Shown: piece after piece, positions 3,370-56,211 of the stretch | Position numbering within the stretch: the first letter of the stretch is position 1 | Layout: every line of letters begins with the position of its first letter | Assembly: GCA_021776915.1 (NCBI GenBank) | Contig: JAIQZU010000063.1 | Span: forward strand, 1-56,211 | Direction of reading: 5' to 3' | Origin: Candidatus Scalindua sp. | Lineage (GTDB): Bacteria; Planctomycetota; Brocadiia; Brocadiales; Scalinduaceae | Length of the DNA: 56,211 nucleotides | Position numbers and translations under genes: made by a program | Notes under the pieces: model-generated | Told to the model about the DNA's origin: nothing | The model's database searches: none | The model's input: only the letters and a program-made list of their open reading frames with translations

Positions 3370-3391
3370 ATAAGTCTTATTTTCTTTTACC

Positions 3392-3958
3392 CTATTTCCT
3401 TCTTCTCTTTGAGCGCGCATTATAGAGTCTTTCTGTAAACCCACCGTCTTTTATAAAATCCTTTTCCAGCTTTCTCAACAGTTGATCAAGCAGGTAGTTT
3501 GTCTGATGAATCAGGCAGGCCATGGTGTTTGCAGCAACTTCAGGAGAAGAGTCTTCAATATAAGTCTTATATGTCTTATAAGACCTATCCTTTTGATAAC
3601 AGAGATTTCTGACTTCTTTGGCCTTCGGATGATCCTTCGGCCAGAGCGGCAGCCCCTTCTGCCTCAAGAAATCCTGAAAATCCAGAAGCAGTTCCTCAAG
3701 GCTCGCCCGGGCCACGCCGACGAGCTTCAGCTCAAACTTCTTCGAAGTGCCCGACGCCATGCTGCCTTCGGCAATATTCTGTTTGCCGCTGCGCGCAGCC
3801 TGCACCATCTGGTCATGGGTGCGTGAGCGTATATTGATAAACCGGTTGCAAAATACAATCGTAGCATCATAGACAATCTCCGACATCTGGTAAGACTGTA
3901 AACCCTGATACCCGCCATGCGGCGGGATGAGTTTAGGGGGATCATTTTTGTTGATCAT
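3392..3958 (-). CDS. Four-helix-bundle (S23/IVP-like) protein inside the cas operon
   Basis: The 188-residue protein belongs to the S23 four-helix-bundle family, first found as proteins encoded in 23S rRNA intervening sequences. Visible hallmarks are MVQAARSGKQNIAEGS near residue 50, KFELKLVGVARASLEEL, and the C-terminal HQTNYLLDQLLRKLE and GGFTERLY segments of the long suffix form. The ATG follows the cas7 stop codon directly. It has a strong site, GGAGGAG, located in the last codons of cas7, so it should be translated with the Cas proteins. It is not part of a standard I-C operon and separates cas7 from cas4. Its function is unknown. It may be a passenger, or an RNA- or protein-binding accessory factor. 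Confidence 0.85.
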   Translation of the reverse strand: MINKNDPPKLIPPHGGYQGLQSYQMSEIVYDATIVFCNRFINIRSRTHDQMVQAARSGKQNIAEGSMASGTSKKFELKLVGVARASLEELLLDFQDFLRQKGLPLWPKDHPKAKEVRNLCYQKDRSYKTYKTYIEDSSPEVAANTMACLIHQTNYLLDQLLRKLEKDFIKDGGFTERLYNARSKRRRK

Positions 3959-49712: not shown

Positions 49713-52418
49713 CTACTGTACCTTTTCTACTCTGGCAGCGCAGGTTTTGTATTCGGGAATCAGGTTTGAATTGCCGTTTGTACGTGGGGCGCAGGGATCT
49801 TTTGTAAGTAGGTTTGCCGGAGCGCTTATGAAGTGGAATGGAATCCAGACCTGTTTCGGCACTACACGGTTTGTGATATTGGCTGCAAGAGAAATCTGGC
49901 CGCGTTTGGTAGTTATCCTGACCATTTCTCCATCTTTTATTCCGGTGTCATCGGCATCTTCTTGAGATATTTCTACAAATGGATAAGGCTGTTTTTGTAC
50001 GCTCCCCTTTGCCCTGTGAGTCATGGTGCCGCTGTTAAAGTGATAAAGAGTGCGTCCTGTGCTGAGAATAAAGGGGTAACTCTTGTCAGCTTTTTCAAGA
50101 GATGGCTTATTTTCTGTTGCGGAAAATGTTGCTTTTCCATTGGGGAATTTCTTCTCGTACAGGAACTTTGTACCGGGGTGATCGGCTTTTGGACATGGCC
50201 ACTGTATTCCACCATTTTCGAGTCTTTCATAATTAATCCCGGCAAAGTTAGGTGAAACCTTCCTGATCTCCTCCCAGACGTCTTCCGGTGAATTGTAATT
50301 CATTGGATATCCCATGTAAGTAGAGAGTTCAGATATTATGTTCCAATCCGCCTTTGCCTTACCCGGTGGTTCAACACTCTTTTTTATCCTCTGTACCCGT
50401 CTTTCAATATTAGTAAACGTACCATCTTTTTCCGCAAAACAGGCTGCCGGTAGTATTACGTCAGCATATTGTGCAGTGTTGGACATAAATATATCCTGTA
50501 CAATCAATAGCTCAAGTTTGTTTAGCGCCTTCTTTACTTTTGTTGTATCGGGTTCACTCATCAGGGGATCAGTGCCCATAACGTACATCGCCTTAATATC
50601 TCCTTTTTGTGCGCTATTAAACATCTCCCTGATTTGCAGACCTCTGTTTTTAGGTAATGAGGTTTTATAAATCTTCTCGAATTTCTTGCGAACCGTATTA
50701 TCTGAGACAGGCTGAAAATCTGTGTAGAAATCAGGTATAGCGCCCATGTTGAAAGCTCCCTGACCATTGTTCTGGCCCGGGAGCGGATATATTCCCGCGC
50801 ATTCCTTCCCAATATTACCAGTCAGCAGGGCGAGGTTTACGAGGCTTTTTACATTATCAACCCCAGCCCTGTGTTGTGTTATGCCATTTCCGTATAATAT
50901 TATGGCGTTCTCTGCATTGGCATAGATCCTGGCAGCTTCCCTGATCGCTTCCTCTGATATACCGGTTAGTTTTACGGTTTTCTTAATATCATCTTTGGCA
51001 ACAGAATTTTTAAGCGTGTTAAACTTCTCTGTTTTCTTTTCTATAAACTTCTCATCATGGAGTTTTTCCTTGATGATTACGTCAATCATAGTGTTGATAA
51101 GAACGGTATCTGTTCCGGGTTGCAGGTTTAAGAAGACCTCTGCTTTCTTCGCCAGCCATATCCTGCGTGTGTCAGCTACAATCAGAGTTTTTCCATTGCG
51201 TACTGCCTTCTTTATCTCAAGTCCTATTATGGGATGTGATTCTGTAACATTAGCGCCAATCACAAATATCACATCTGATTCTGAGATTTCCTCGATTGAA
51301 TTTGTTGTAGCGCTCAGGCCAAGAGTACTTCTCAGGGCGTTTAAGGTTGGGGCGTGGCACTCTGTTTCTGACTGGTCAATATTATTTGTTCCAATAACAG
51401 TCCTGGCGAATTTCTGCAATAGATAATTTTCTTCATTTGTACACCGCCCTGAACTGATAAATGAAATTGCGTCTGCTCCGTGTTTTTTCTTAATGCCTTT
51501 CAGGTTTTCGGAAATCACCTTATATGCGTCTTCCCAACTTGCTTTCTCAAGATTTCCATTCCTTCTTACCATGGGAGAATCAATTCTGTCCGGATGATTT
51601 ATGAAATCATAGGCAAATCTGCCCTTCATACACAGATTGCCGTCGTTTGGTGTAGACCCAACTTCTGAGGTTATTTTATTGATTTCTTGATGATTGGAAT
51701 GGATATCGATCTGACAACCGATACTGCAGTAGCCGCATGTTGATCTGACTTTCTGGGTCTGGTAAGAGCGGCCTTTGCCGGTTGGCTGTTTCTCACGTAT
51801 GGCGCCTACCGGGCACGTGGACACACATTGACCACACAAGACACACGGACCGTCCAACAGTGTTTCGCCAAATGGTGTGGCAACCCACATTTGAAATCCT
51901 CTGCCTCCAAACTCTATTGCATGTTCTTGCGTTACTTCATCACATATCCTTACACAACGACCACACCTGATACACTTAGGAGTTTCTCTATAAATCAGCT
52001 CATTTTTATCCGGTATAACTCCGCCTCTCTTTTCCTTACTCCTGAACCTGTCTCCCTTGATACCGGTAGCATATGCAACATCCTGAAGCTCACAGCACCC
52101 TGTAGCCTCACAGGTCATACAGTCAAGAGGATGATCTGACAAGATGTATTCCAGGACTCCTTTCCTCGTCCTGCGAATATCCTCAGTTTCAGTCTTAACA
52201 ACCATGCCCTCATTAACCTTGGATATGCATGATGGCATCAACTGTCTTGCCCCTTTTATTTCGACCAGGCATATTCTGCATCCACCGTATGGCTCAAGGC
52301 GATTATCATGGCAAAGGGTCGGAATCCAGATGTCGTTTGCTCTTGCTACTTCCAGTACGGTCTTTCCTTGCTCTGTTTCATACGTTTTATCATTAATGGT
52401 TAATTTAATCTTTTCCAT
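49713..52418 (-). CDS. fdhA: Formate-dehydrogenase-type molybdopterin oxidoreductase with NuoG-like N-terminus
   Basis: The 901-residue protein has an N-terminal [2Fe-2S] domain (Cys 36, 47, 50, 64) and a His-Cys [4Fe-4S] segment (DHPLDCMTCEATGCCELQ). Two ferredoxin clusters follow (CIRCGRCVRIC, CVLCGQCVSTCPVG). Next comes the catalytic domain with its own cluster (CGYCSIGC...LCMKGRF), the putative Mo-ligand Cys in ETECHAPT, and a C-terminal molybdopterin-guanine-dinucleotide domain. That is the layout of the alpha subunit of NAD-dependent formate dehydrogenases. The ligand residue is Cys, not Sec. No beta or gamma subunit lies next to it. The electron acceptor cannot be told. Confidence 0.92.
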   Translation of the reverse strand: MEKIKLTINDKTYETEQGKTVLEVARANDIWIPTLCHDNRLEPYGGCRICLVEIKGARQLMPSCISKVNEGMVVKTETEDIRRTRKGVLEYILSDHPLDCMTCEATGCCELQDVAYATGIKGDRFRSKEKRGGVIPDKNELIYRETPKCIRCGRCVRICDEVTQEHAIEFGGRGFQMWVATPFGETLLDGPCVLCGQCVSTCPVGAIREKQPTGKGRSYQTQKVRSTCGYCSIGCQIDIHSNHQEINKITSEVGSTPNDGNLCMKGRFAYDFINHPDRIDSPMVRRNGNLEKASWEDAYKVISENLKGIKKKHGADAISFISSGRCTNEENYLLQKFARTVIGTNNIDQSETECHAPTLNALRSTLGLSATTNSIEEISESDVIFVIGANVTESHPIIGLEIKKAVRNGKTLIVADTRRIWLAKKAEVFLNLQPGTDTVLINTMIDVIIKEKLHDEKFIEKKTEKFNTLKNSVAKDDIKKTVKLTGISEEAIREAARIYANAENAIILYGNGITQHRAGVDNVKSLVNLALLTGNIGKECAGIYPLPGQNNGQGAFNMGAIPDFYTDFQPVSDNTVRKKFEKIYKTSLPKNRGLQIREMFNSAQKGDIKAMYVMGTDPLMSEPDTTKVKKALNKLELLIVQDIFMSNTAQYADVILPAACFAEKDGTFTNIERRVQRIKKSVEPPGKAKADWNIISELSTYMGYPMNYNSPEDVWEEIRKVSPNFAGINYERLENGGIQWPCPKADHPGTKFLYEKKFPNGKATFSATENKPSLEKADKSYPFILSTGRTLYHFNSGTMTHRAKGSVQKQPYPFVEISQEDADDTGIKDGEMVRITTKRGQISLAANITNRVVPKQVWIPFHFISAPANLLTKDPCAPRTNGNSNLIPEYKTCAARVEKVQ

Positions 52419-52602: not shown

Positions 52603-53778
52603 CTAGTTAGTGTTTAACAGAGGCGTCCGGGCCGATTGCTGAATCTTTGGACGTGATCCCATCATGCAAAACTCTTTGGCGGTAATGTAACGTCCATAAA
52701 AGTTACTAATGCCTGCATCTCTGGCTTCGACTACAATACCAGTCCCATTATCGAGCCATCTGTCAGGTAAGTCGCTGACATTTGGCGTGATCAGGTTGGA
52801 AGATTGCCAGAGGAACGGGGCATTTCTTCGTACCGTAGTCATACGAAACCATCTGGCCAGGTTTTGGTTGAGCCTCATCCTGATCTCATACCATTCACGT
52901 ACGATCCGGGCGTGTTCAAAACACGCTAATCTATTATGTGGAGGAGCATGAATATCTACGTACCTGACAGCATCATTAAGAAATAGCCTGGCAAGTGAGT
53001 CAGCCGCTTCTTGTAACTGAGGGTCTTCTGTGGATTTTGCATCTTCTCCGGCCCATAGCTCAATAAGTTTATCTGCCAGTGTTTTAGCACGTTCATCCCT
53101 GATTTGTACTTGCGCAAGAGGTTCCTGGATTAGTCTGAATTCTCCTTCTATTGACATTGGTATCTTGCCAGATCCTGATTCACTTCTGGCGGACAGGGCC
53201 AGCCGGGTTTGCACGAGATACTGAACACCTGCTTCCATTTCAATTGTCAGCGGCTTCTGCTCCTCTACCGTACTCATCCATAAATGTTGGTTCCCATCTA
53301 TCGTAAACTCCTTTGCGTGGATTATCTTGTGCATGCGTCCAACCATACGATTATCCTCACTCAAGTGAACTTCAATGGAGATTTCCAGTTCAGATTTGAT
53401 GGTGTTAATGGGAACTGGTCCTGATTCCACGATTCCATCCAGATGTATAGCATAAATTCCCTTTTCATTAGCTCGGTAAGTCTCTTTCAGTTCACAGACT
53501 GCTTCACCCTCAGACTTGCCGGTTTCAAGCAATAGGGCCAAATGCGTCCAATACGAATCCCACTTTGGGGAGTATTCGGCAAGTGCACGACTCTCACTGG
53601 CGTTTACCGTGACAACTCCTCCCTGGTCCAGACGCCGGGTTTGTTGCACCTGACTGCTCTTTATGGTCGCTACCATATTTACCTGTCGTGAGTTGGCTAT
53701 GTTGGTTACGGTAGTACATCCGACTATCGACATCGCAACCATAGATAATAATCCTATATACGCTAAAGATGATCGCAT
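52603..53778 (-). CDS. Lipoprotein of unknown function
   Basis: The 391-residue protein has a lipoprotein signal, with the lipobox SIVGC ending at Cys 21. I recognise no domain. A polar N-terminal half includes QVQQTRRLDQGGVVTVN. Repeated beta-rich segments (residues ~80-210) are followed by a helical part (residues ~220-310, RAKTLADKLIELWAGEDA, ARIVREWYEIRMRLNQNLARWF). It stands alone between the formate-dehydrogenase-like gene and the YHS gene. It is likely anchored to a membrane and exported. Confidence 0.72.
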   Translation of the reverse strand: MRSSLAYIGLLSMVAMSIVGCTTVTNIANSRQVNMVATIKSSQVQQTRRLDQGGVVTVNASESRALAEYSPKWDSYWTHLALLLETGKSEGEAVCELKETYRANEKGIYAIHLDGIVESGPVPINTIKSELEISIEVHLSEDNRMVGRMHKIIHAKEFTIDGNQHLWMSTVEEQKPLTIEMEAGVQYLVQTRLALSARSESGSGKIPMSIEGEFRLIQEPLAQVQIRDERAKTLADKLIELWAGEDAKSTEDPQLQEAADSLARLFLNDAVRYVDIHAPPHNRLACFEHARIVREWYEIRMRLNQNLARWFRMTTVRRNAPFLWQSSNLITPNVSDLPDRWLDNGTGIVVEARDAGISNFYGRYITAKEFCMMGSRPKIQQSARTPLLNTN

Positions 53779-54006: not shown

Positions 54007-54423
54007 ATGACACGTATTAGTTTTTTTACAGGTGCTGTCGTACTTGCGTTTGTGTTAGCGACTGCTAATACTACGACATTTGCCAACAACAGTTGTTGCG
54101 GCGTTAAGAAAGATGTTGAAGAATGTCAAAAGAAAGAGTCCTGTAGTATGAAAGATCACAAGGACTGTGGCAGTGATTGCGCTATGAAAGTTTCCGCAAG
54201 TGAAGGTTCAGATAATGCATGTCCTGTTTGTGGGCAAGCTGCAGACAGTAAGGGTAAGCAAGTAGATACAAAACACGCTGGTGAAACCGTCCATTTGTGC
54301 TGTGAAGGTTGTGCGAACGCATATAATGAAAACCCCGATAAATATTCAAAGGTGGAAAGAAAGAGGGAGACTCATAAAGCAGCTCCTCCAAAGAAAAAGC
54401 AGCGCGGTGAAGGGTACTATTAG
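54007..54423 (+). CDS. Exported cysteine-rich protein with YHS/TRASH-type metal-binding domain
   Basis: The start at 54007 follows AAAGGAG; an earlier in-frame Met at 53989 lies over that site and is unlikely. The 138-residue protein has a signal peptide (about 1-26, ending TFANN). A Cys-rich middle follows (NSCCGV, EECQKKESCSMKDHKDCGSDC). The C-terminal domain has CPVCGQ and HLCCEGCANAYNENPDKY, typical of YHS/TRASH-type metal-binding folds. The tail is basic: PPKKKQRGEGYY. A periplasmic metal-handling role is likely. Its last 15 codons and its terminator reappear downstream of the Fic gene. Confidence 0.82.
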   Translation: MTRISFFTGAVVLAFVLATANTTTFANNSCCGVKKDVEECQKKESCSMKDHKDCGSDCAMKVSASEGSDNACPVCGQAADSKGKQVDTKHAGETVHLCCEGCANAYNENPDKYSKVERKRETHKAAPPKKKQRGEGYY

Positions 54424-54458
54424 TAAACCGTAATGTAGTATAAAAAAAGTATTTTTAT

Positions 54459-54502
54459 AAAGGCGTTCTTGTATTAGTTAAGATACAGGAACGCCTTTTT
54501 TT
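54459..54502 (+). terminator. Rho-independent terminator of the cysteine-rich YHS/TRASH gene
   Basis: AAAGGCGTTC and GAACGCCTTT form the lower stem, extended by a TTGTAT/ATACAG part over a short loop, followed by a T run. An almost identical copy stands at 55617-55659. Confidence 0.92.
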
Positions 54503-54574
54503 GTCCTGAATATTGCAATTTTCTGCGTACTTTTCAATTGCAATATATATAGTTTTGTATATACTATTTAAATA

Positions 54575-55498
54575 ATGAGCGAAAACTATATATTACAATT
54601 AAAAAGTATTCTGGGTTCTCAGTCGCTAACCCAACAGCAATTGGCAGAAAAACTGGGAGTATCTTTTGCGACATTAAACCGCTGGCTAAATAAACACGCA
54701 GTCCCTCATAAAAAAAGATTAGAGCAGATCAGCCGATTGCACAGAGAGGTTGTCGGATATAGTTCTATTACAGCAGAAGATATCAATGGAATAATTAGTG
54801 AGGCAGATAACTATAGGGAAAGCAGAATTTGGGAAATTATCGAAAGCAGGCAGGATTTATTGGACGATTTACTTTTGGAGCACACCTATAATTCTACAAC
54901 TATTGAGGGAACTACATTCACGAAGAAGCAGACAGAGGCTGTTATCTTTGATAAATTAACTATCAAGAATAAATCACTTATTGAGCATCTGGATGTTATT
55001 AATTATTCAGTAGTGCTTCGTAAAATATTAAAGAGAGAGTTTCCGCAGAGAATCACAGAGACTTCAATTAAAGAGATCCATCGACTATTACTGCAAGGTG
55101 TTCGGGAAGACGGAGGGTTGTACTCGCAACATCAGAGGGGGATTCGAGGGCTCGATATGATGTTGACGCATCCACAGGATATTCCGGAAGAGATGGGCCG
55201 ATTAATCAGGCGATGGAATTCCGGTAAACAAAAGAACATACAGTCAATCGCAAAATTTCATAGTGACTTTGAACTGATTCATCCTTTTGGTGACGGAAAT
55301 GGCGGTGTTGGCCGGCTGATAATGGTTTTGCAATGTCAGGCAGAAAATTATGCCCCGGTTATCATCGAAAATTCAAGAAAAGCTGAGTATTATGAAGTTC
55401 TGGAATATGCTCAAAGGAAAAGTGAATATCCCTTTGTTCGTTTTTTAGTTGATGAAATGAAAAGGACTTTTAGAATAATCAAGAAATATAATATTTAA
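54575..55498 (+). CDS. Fic-domain protein with N-terminal helix-turn-helix
   Basis: The 307-residue protein has an XRE-type helix-turn-helix (residues ~14-50, LTQQQLAEKLGVSFATLNRWL), then an inhibitory-helix motif (STTIEG, matching S/TxxxE-G/N). The Fic core motif is HPFGDGNGGVGRL near residue 233. Canonical Fic enzymes, which AMPylate proteins, have HPFxDGNGRxxR. Here the first Arg after GNG is Gly, while the second Arg is kept. Activity may be altered. No antitoxin-like partner gene is adjacent. It lies between the two copies of the gene-tail/terminator duplication. Confidence 0.9.
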   Translation: MSENYILQLKSILGSQSLTQQQLAEKLGVSFATLNRWLNKHAVPHKKRLEQISRLHREVVGYSSITAEDINGIISEADNYRESRIWEIIESRQDLLDDLLLEHTYNSTTIEGTTFTKKQTEAVIFDKLTIKNKSLIEHLDVINYSVVLRKILKREFPQRITETSIKEIHRLLLQGVREDGGLYSQHQRGIRGLDMMLTHPQDIPEEMGRLIRRWNSGKQKNIQSIAKFHSDFELIHPFGDGNGGVGRLIMVLQCQAENYAPVIIENSRKAEYYEVLEYAQRKSEYPFVRFLVDEMKRTFRIIKKYNI

Positions 55499-55500
55499 TA

Positions 55501-55578
55501 GTGAGAGTAATAGCAGTTCCTATTCTTTCTAAGGCAGCTCCCCCCAAAAAAAAGCAACGTGGTGAAGGGTACTATTAG
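55501..55578 (+). pseudogene. Remnant of a paralog of the YHS/TRASH gene (duplicated C-terminal tail)
   Basis: After the Fic stop, KAAPPKKKQRGEGYY followed by a TAG is encoded at 55531-55578, identical in protein to the end of the gene at 54007-54423. The DNA differs at six third positions, all synonymous. The open frame reaches a GTG at 55501 but has no ribosome binding site. It is therefore a surviving tail of a once-functional paralog, not a translated gene. Confidence 0.75.
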
Positions 55579-55616
55579 TAAACCGTAATGTAGTATAAAA
55601 AAAGTATTTTTATAAT

Positions 55617-55659
55617 AAAGGCGTTCTTGTATTAGTTAAGATACAGGAACGCCTTTTTT
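55617..55659 (+). terminator. Duplicated rho-independent terminator after the Fic gene
   Basis: The stem-loop and T run match those at 54459-54502. The preceding 3' untranslated sequence is also shared apart from a small three-base TAA insertion. Confidence 0.9.
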
Positions 55660-55767: not shown

Positions 55768-56211
55768 ATGAAAATTTACCTTATTTACGTCCGAGACGAG
55801 GATTATTACAATATTCTTCCTGAGAAACTCAGGAGATCAGGAAACAGCGACCGCATTGAGGTGATGGCTTTCCCGCCACTTGGCATTCAGGTGCTGGCAC
55901 CGGTAATCCGCAGTCATGGACACGAGGTAACCATGTTCGATACCTGCCATCCACAGATGAAAGAGGAGCACATCGAGCAGGCCGTAAAAGATGAAAAACC
56001 TGATATAATTGCCCTTTCATTTCTTTCAACTACTTGTTACCTTCTTGTGAAGAGTATGGCGCAAAGGCTAAAGAAGACGGCGCCAGAAACCCCCATTATT
56101 ATCGGAGGTGCTTTTGCAACGATGAATGCTGTTAAGATACTGAAAGATGCGCCATACATCGATTGTGTTGGCAGGGGGGAAGGTGAAGAGCTGATTCCTG
56201 AGTATCTCGAC
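55768..56211 (+). CDS. B12-binding radical SAM protein (partial, cut by window end)
   Basis: From ATG 55768 the frame runs open to the window edge (148 codons). It shows a B12-binding domain: AFPPLGIQVLAPVIRSHGHEVTMFD, KPDIIALSFLSTTCYL, TPIIIGGAFATMNA and IDCVGRGEGEELIPEYL. This opening matches radical SAM enzymes of the BchE/P-methylase class. The CX3CX2C site would lie beyond the window. It is a different sequence from the rSAM protein at 33771-35345. The reaction is not determinable. Confidence 0.88.
   Translation, partial: MKIYLIYVRDEDYYNILPEKLRRSGNSDRIEVMAFPPLGIQVLAPVIRSHGHEVTMFDTCHPQMKEEHIEQAVKDEKPDIIALSFLSTTCYLLVKSMAQRLKKTAPETPIIIGGAFATMNAVKILKDAPYIDCVGRGEGEELIPEYLD

Follow-up and report, generated by a model that had tools for sequence, protein, structure and literature searches.

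An orphan gene end behind a Fic gene as the probable trace of DNA exchange in Candidatus Scalindua

Results

The window analysed here is a stretch of 56,211 nt from Candidatus Scalindua sp., a marine anammox bacterium (GCA_021776915.1, contig JAIQZU010000063.1; G000), whose genome is a draft of 89 contigs that is 95% complete with 3.6% contamination. We compared it within a set of 13 Ca. Scalindua genomes, the window's own counted among them, using fixed clade-diagnostic sites that tell apart two groups of Scalindua sequences, clade 1 and clade 2; G015, a member of another genus, served as the outgroup for the comparison of terminators. The locus comprises, on the minus strand, a molybdopterin oxidoreductase or formate dehydrogenase alpha-like gene (F0, positions 49713 to 52418; an open reading frame whose functional name is read from the sequence) and an open reading frame for a lipoprotein-like protein of 391 amino acids (F9, 52603 to 53778), which has no Pfam match and is found elsewhere among the compared genomes only in G004 and G006. 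On the plus strand lie the intact gene of a secreted YHS/TRASH-domain protein (54007 to 54423; an open reading frame with Pfam TRASH and YHS matches below the gathering scores), which has orthologues in 12 of the 13 genomes, an HTH-Fic gene of 307 codons (54575 to 55498; Pfam Fic and HTH_3) and the 5' part of a B12-binding radical SAM gene (55768 to 56211). The latter, an open reading frame identified by Pfam on its G004 orthologue, reaches the contig end and is 97% identical to the G004 protein over 148 amino acids. The YHS frames of G001 (L028) and G003 (L031) are broken by in-frame stops, which suggests either decay or assembly errors.

The last 15 codons of the YHS gene, its 3' untranslated region (UTR) and its terminator hairpin make up a tail of 127 nt (copy A, 54375 to 54501, plus strand; delimited by repeat comparison, alignment and folding) that recurs once, behind the Fic gene. 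There it forms copy B (55530 to 55659, plus strand; from alignment), in which the same three elements, taken from another YHS allele, stand as an orphan. An earlier note on this DNA had described such a duplicated YHS/TRASH tail and terminator on both sides of the Fic gene, and the direct repeat and the alignment bear it out with a slight shift of its boundaries, the similarity running from 54375/55530 to the T-run at 54501/55659. Across the first 86 nt the two copies are 93% identical and in register, and both translate to the same 15 residues followed by a stop (KAAPPKKKQRGEGYY). As the note had also stated, the coding part carries six differences over 45 nt, all synonymous (at 54378, 54387, 54390, 54393, 54402 and 54405 in copy A); the synonymous share of random single changes in these codons is about 21%, which for six of six gives 0.21^6, or about 1e-4. 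The noncoding part, 81 nt long, is nearly identical: it shows 0 substitutions, and B carries a single insertion of 3 nt. Comparing 6/45 with 0/81 yields a Fisher p of 0.0017, for a split and boundaries that are post hoc and were prompted by the finding itself. The longest exact runs shared by the copies measure ~51 and ~45 nt. Tail B is an orphan gene end without a body of its own, in register with a complete relative. Folding gives a strong terminator hairpin in both tails (z of -5.5 and -6.5), and the Fic transcript now probably ends at the terminator of tail B.

A search of the whole genome for further tails, which the note had proposed, returned, besides A and B, only the tail of a YHS paralogue on contig C22 (82%), and a wider contig search with the YHS gene gave four loci (three of them Scalindua/Brocadiaceae), none of them from another member of the lineage to which the window belongs. 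Two other readings of the repeat were rejected: for a dispersed repeat or uptake sequence, no genome has more than four occurrences of the terminator core, a single mismatch being allowed, and most of these lie in YHS tails; for a site-specific integrative element with att repeats, there is no recombinase, and only the Fic gene lies between the repeats. Contig C22 of the same genome (54000 to 70000) carries a second block of YHS, F0, F1 and F4 together with F5 and F6, all of clade-2 type, which represents either a real duplication or a mixed bin.

The Fic domain scores 71.1 bits against a gathering cut-off of 24 (Pfam PF02661), and sequence comparison relates the protein to structures of the FICD-like and SoFic kind and to the PADLOC PDC-S04/SoFic models. 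It shares with the HTH-Fic, SoFic-like AMPylator family (PF02661; PADLOC PDC-S04, SoFic) the Fic domain, the HTH domain and a class II-like N-terminal motif, STTIEG. However, where Fic AMPylators have the complete motif HPFx(D/E)GNGRxxR, the window reads HPFGDGNGGVGR (near 55290 to 55315), with the first arginine of GNGR replaced by glycine (GNGG); the homologue in G008 has HPFGDGNGRVGR, with GNGR intact. This replacement makes the activity of the window's Fic protein doubtful, and the copy may be inactive. Compared with G008, the gene shows a dN/dS-like ratio of about 0.17 and an uneven distribution of synonymous differences, 5 in its last third and 29 in its first, which suggests that part of it was probably exchanged recently; similarity to G008 is also much higher in the 3' half of the gene than in the 5' half, a contrast that points to one or more additional exchanges. 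Of 62 genomes from the order, only G000 and G008 hold a close homologue, so that the gene was not found as a recurrent passenger elsewhere. An imperfect inverted repeat in the sequence across the Fic start (54535 to 54600, plus strand), which G008 shares and of which G009 keeps a relic, is a candidate autoregulatory operator for the HTH domain.

In the relatives, the YHS gene is followed directly by the B12/radical SAM gene (G004, G001, G003 and G011), by an SNF2 helicase gene (G006, G008 and G009) or by other conserved genes of the F5 and F6 families (G010, G012, G002 and G005). The tail and terminator are thereby joined, in different species, to SNF2-SWIM-Fic, to radical SAM, with a TIR-domain gene next in G004, or to MBL and methyltransferase genes (F6/F5). 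The sequence to the right of A (54502 to 54541, plus strand; TGTCCTGAATATTGC, by alignment to G008) is of the SNF2 type, as in G006 (G006a), G008 and G009, whereas that to the right of B (ATTTGATGGTATTC) is of the G004 type, and B together with everything rightward on the radical SAM side aligns to G004 unbroken at 94%. In relatives, each of these flanks lies 3' of a YHS gene that stands alone, and the comparison for two tandem YHS genes that the note had called for found none in any of the 13 genomes of the genus. In G008 the gene order is YHS-SNF2-SWIM-Fic, with a Fic protein 90% identical to that of the window and no second tail, and behind SWIM in G009 a remnant of the Fic promoter region is left. 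From these two genomes the linkage of Fic appears to be older than the second tail, which goes part of the way towards the case named in the note as refuting its own account, an ancestral Fic gene with a tail copied later. A second, 5'-truncated YHS gene with an SNF2-type flank, consisting of the last ~51 codons and the tail, lies in G006 (contig C171, about 3386 to 3620; L024) and constitutes another orphan YHS 3' end.

We then located the joints at which these arrangements meet in the window. Between tail A and Fic, the left side matches the sequence after YHS in G008 and the right side the sequence before Fic, with an overlap of 6 bp, AATTGC (54536 to 54541), at the end of the SNF2-type flank. 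The SNF2 and SWIM genes, about 3.8 kb in G008, are missing from the window at this point, and since AATTGC stands at both corresponding places in G008, the joint bears the signature of a microhomology deletion. Between Fic and B, the 31-nt spacer from the Fic stop to the orphan tail (55499 to 55529, plus strand) has no counterpart in the relatives compared, and it is the only unmatched joint at the locus. Further left, the clade-diagnostic sites and sliding identity place a switch from clade-2 to clade-1 ancestry inside F0, at 51341 to 51405: 3 sites of clade-1 type stand against 30 of clade-2 type on the left and 21 against 0 on the right, and none of 500 permutations was as good. This breakpoint is what one homologous junction would leave. 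In gene trees, the window's F0 and F1 group with clade 2, the RecQ-like F4 shares its half of the tree with clade 2, YHS groups with clade 1, and radical SAM groups with G004, the right-hand ancestry being read from the short stretch of a gene cut by the contig end.

The tails themselves are mosaic at the same sites. The codons of A and B look clade-1-like, the flank of A past its terminator is of clade-1 type, and the UTR and terminator of A, of B and, at most sites, of G004 show clade-2-like states. The outgroup terminator in G015 (TTACAATATGCAGG) resembles clade 1, so that the clade-2 states are probably derived. Clade-2-like UTR and terminator sites in A are thus enclosed by clade-1-like codons and a clade-1-type flank, and it looks, in line with one of two possibilities given in the note, as if the noncoding part had been homogenised by recombination; the pattern fits a conversion of A by B. 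In B, the noncoding sites are clade-2-like and the codons are not: the 15 codons, too few for placement in a tree, hold no clade-2-specific amino acids and look clade-1-like or ancestral, so that B may have an origin other than the clade-2 backbone.

Discussion

Our preferred reading, to which we assign a probability of roughly 0.55, is that the locus combines as a mosaic two alleles of one chromosomal site in Scalindua, with the arrangements YHS-tail-SNF2-SWIM-Fic and YHS-tail-radical-SAM, put together by an import with a homologous left and an illegitimate right end and by conversion of the tails. A segment from a clade-1 relative, with the 5' part of F0, the lipoprotein gene, YHS, tail A and Fic, would have entered a clade-2-related backbone by a homologous crossover inside F0 (51341 to 51405) on the left and a non-homologous join in the resident YHS gene, 15 codons before its end, on the right. 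The resident YHS body would have been lost and its tail, B, left behind with the radical SAM gene; gene conversion would later have homogenised the UTR and terminator of A and B, and the SNF2-SWIM deletion through AATTGC may have happened earlier or later than the import. The comparison shows the two flank types in relatives, the F0 breakpoint, the signature of the deletion and the single unmatched joint; in what order the events took place, which way the import went and that its route was homology-facilitated illegitimate recombination (HFIR) are what we infer. An import whose left end was homologous and whose right end was not needs the fewest steps.

The same two alleles could also have met by another route, somewhat doubtful in our judgement, in which either one crossover within the resident tail inserted a circular or tandem donor with a tail and Fic, or a fragment of the radical-SAM type, with its break inside the YHS tail, became attached behind the Fic gene of an SNF2-type genome. 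In both versions, A would combine resident codons with a donor flank and B donor codons with a resident flank. This explains the tails about as well as our preferred reading does, and at the two most informative coding sites A agrees with G004 (54378 A, 54402 G) and B with most SNF2-type genomes (G and A), as a reciprocal exchange predicts. However, the agreement concerns two sites only, the F0 breakpoint is left unexplained, and the donor would need a pre-formed Fic-to-tail joint, of which no relative gives evidence.

The earlier note had instead taken B for the end of a paralog under purifying selection, the second of two tandem YHS genes, whose body was replaced by Fic. All-synonymous differences do show that B was once part of a functional YHS gene, and a truncated second YHS 3' part does exist in G006, on a different contig, yet the lack of tandem YHS genes throughout the 13 genomes speaks against a tandem paralog, G008 and G009 weaken it further, and the SNF2-type flank of A with its microhomology deletion to Fic indicates that Fic arrived with the A side rather than by replacing a body in place. 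We therefore consider tandem paralogs quite unlikely. Our preferred reading keeps a displaced body, but more likely as that of the resident allele, pushed out by the incoming YHS and Fic segment, than as that of a paralog. A joining of coexisting alleles in one contig, as an assembly or strain-mixture artefact, would be in keeping with the draft state of the assembly (89 contigs) and the second homologous block on C22. The exact runs between A and B, however, measure only ~51 and ~45 nt, less than the large k-mers of final assembly steps and typical reads, and the Fic-to-B joint is unique sequence, which makes an artefact unlikely too, and markedly so.

The import that we favour has parallels in known systems. 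For the orphan immunity genes of Vibrio cholerae, the same kind of displacement event has been proposed (PMC5361080), and the type VI secretion system (T6SS) orphan immunity genes and orphan Rhs tips would share with the present locus an incoming module, a one-sided homology anchor, a displaced resident gene and a 3' remnant downstream. Here, however, the remnant is a 15-codon, presumably untranslated tail with a terminator instead of a functional immunity gene, and an anammox bacterium carries a Fic gene as the cargo. HFIR likewise pairs a homologous end with a non-homologous one. It has been documented for the competent bacteria S. pneumoniae, Acinetobacter and P. stutzeri and, as a rare event, for conjugation in E. 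coli (PMC3240628), whereas in Scalindua it is deduced from an old, much-altered locus whose joint cannot be dated. Our literature search found nothing specific on orphan tails at hotspots.

We regard the locus as a clear fossil of DNA exchange at a recombination seam rather than as a system of a new kind. A breakpoint, an unmatched joint, a microhomology deletion and a conversion tract, one of each, are preserved within about 4 kb and together give an unusually readable record of how species-level lineages exchanged genes in an anammox genus that is uncultivated and of global importance. The locus also illustrates that orphan gene ends can reveal allele displacement where tandem duplication might be supposed. 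As a tentative suggestion, the YHS 3' end might be a recurrent recombination seam in Scalindua, at which the duplicated tail would make the Fic module excisable to a G004-like empty site. In G004 itself (L022, 9657 to 11827), the radical SAM gene is followed by a TIR-domain gene and a gene for an unknown protein of 415 amino acids, which are possibly defence cargo.
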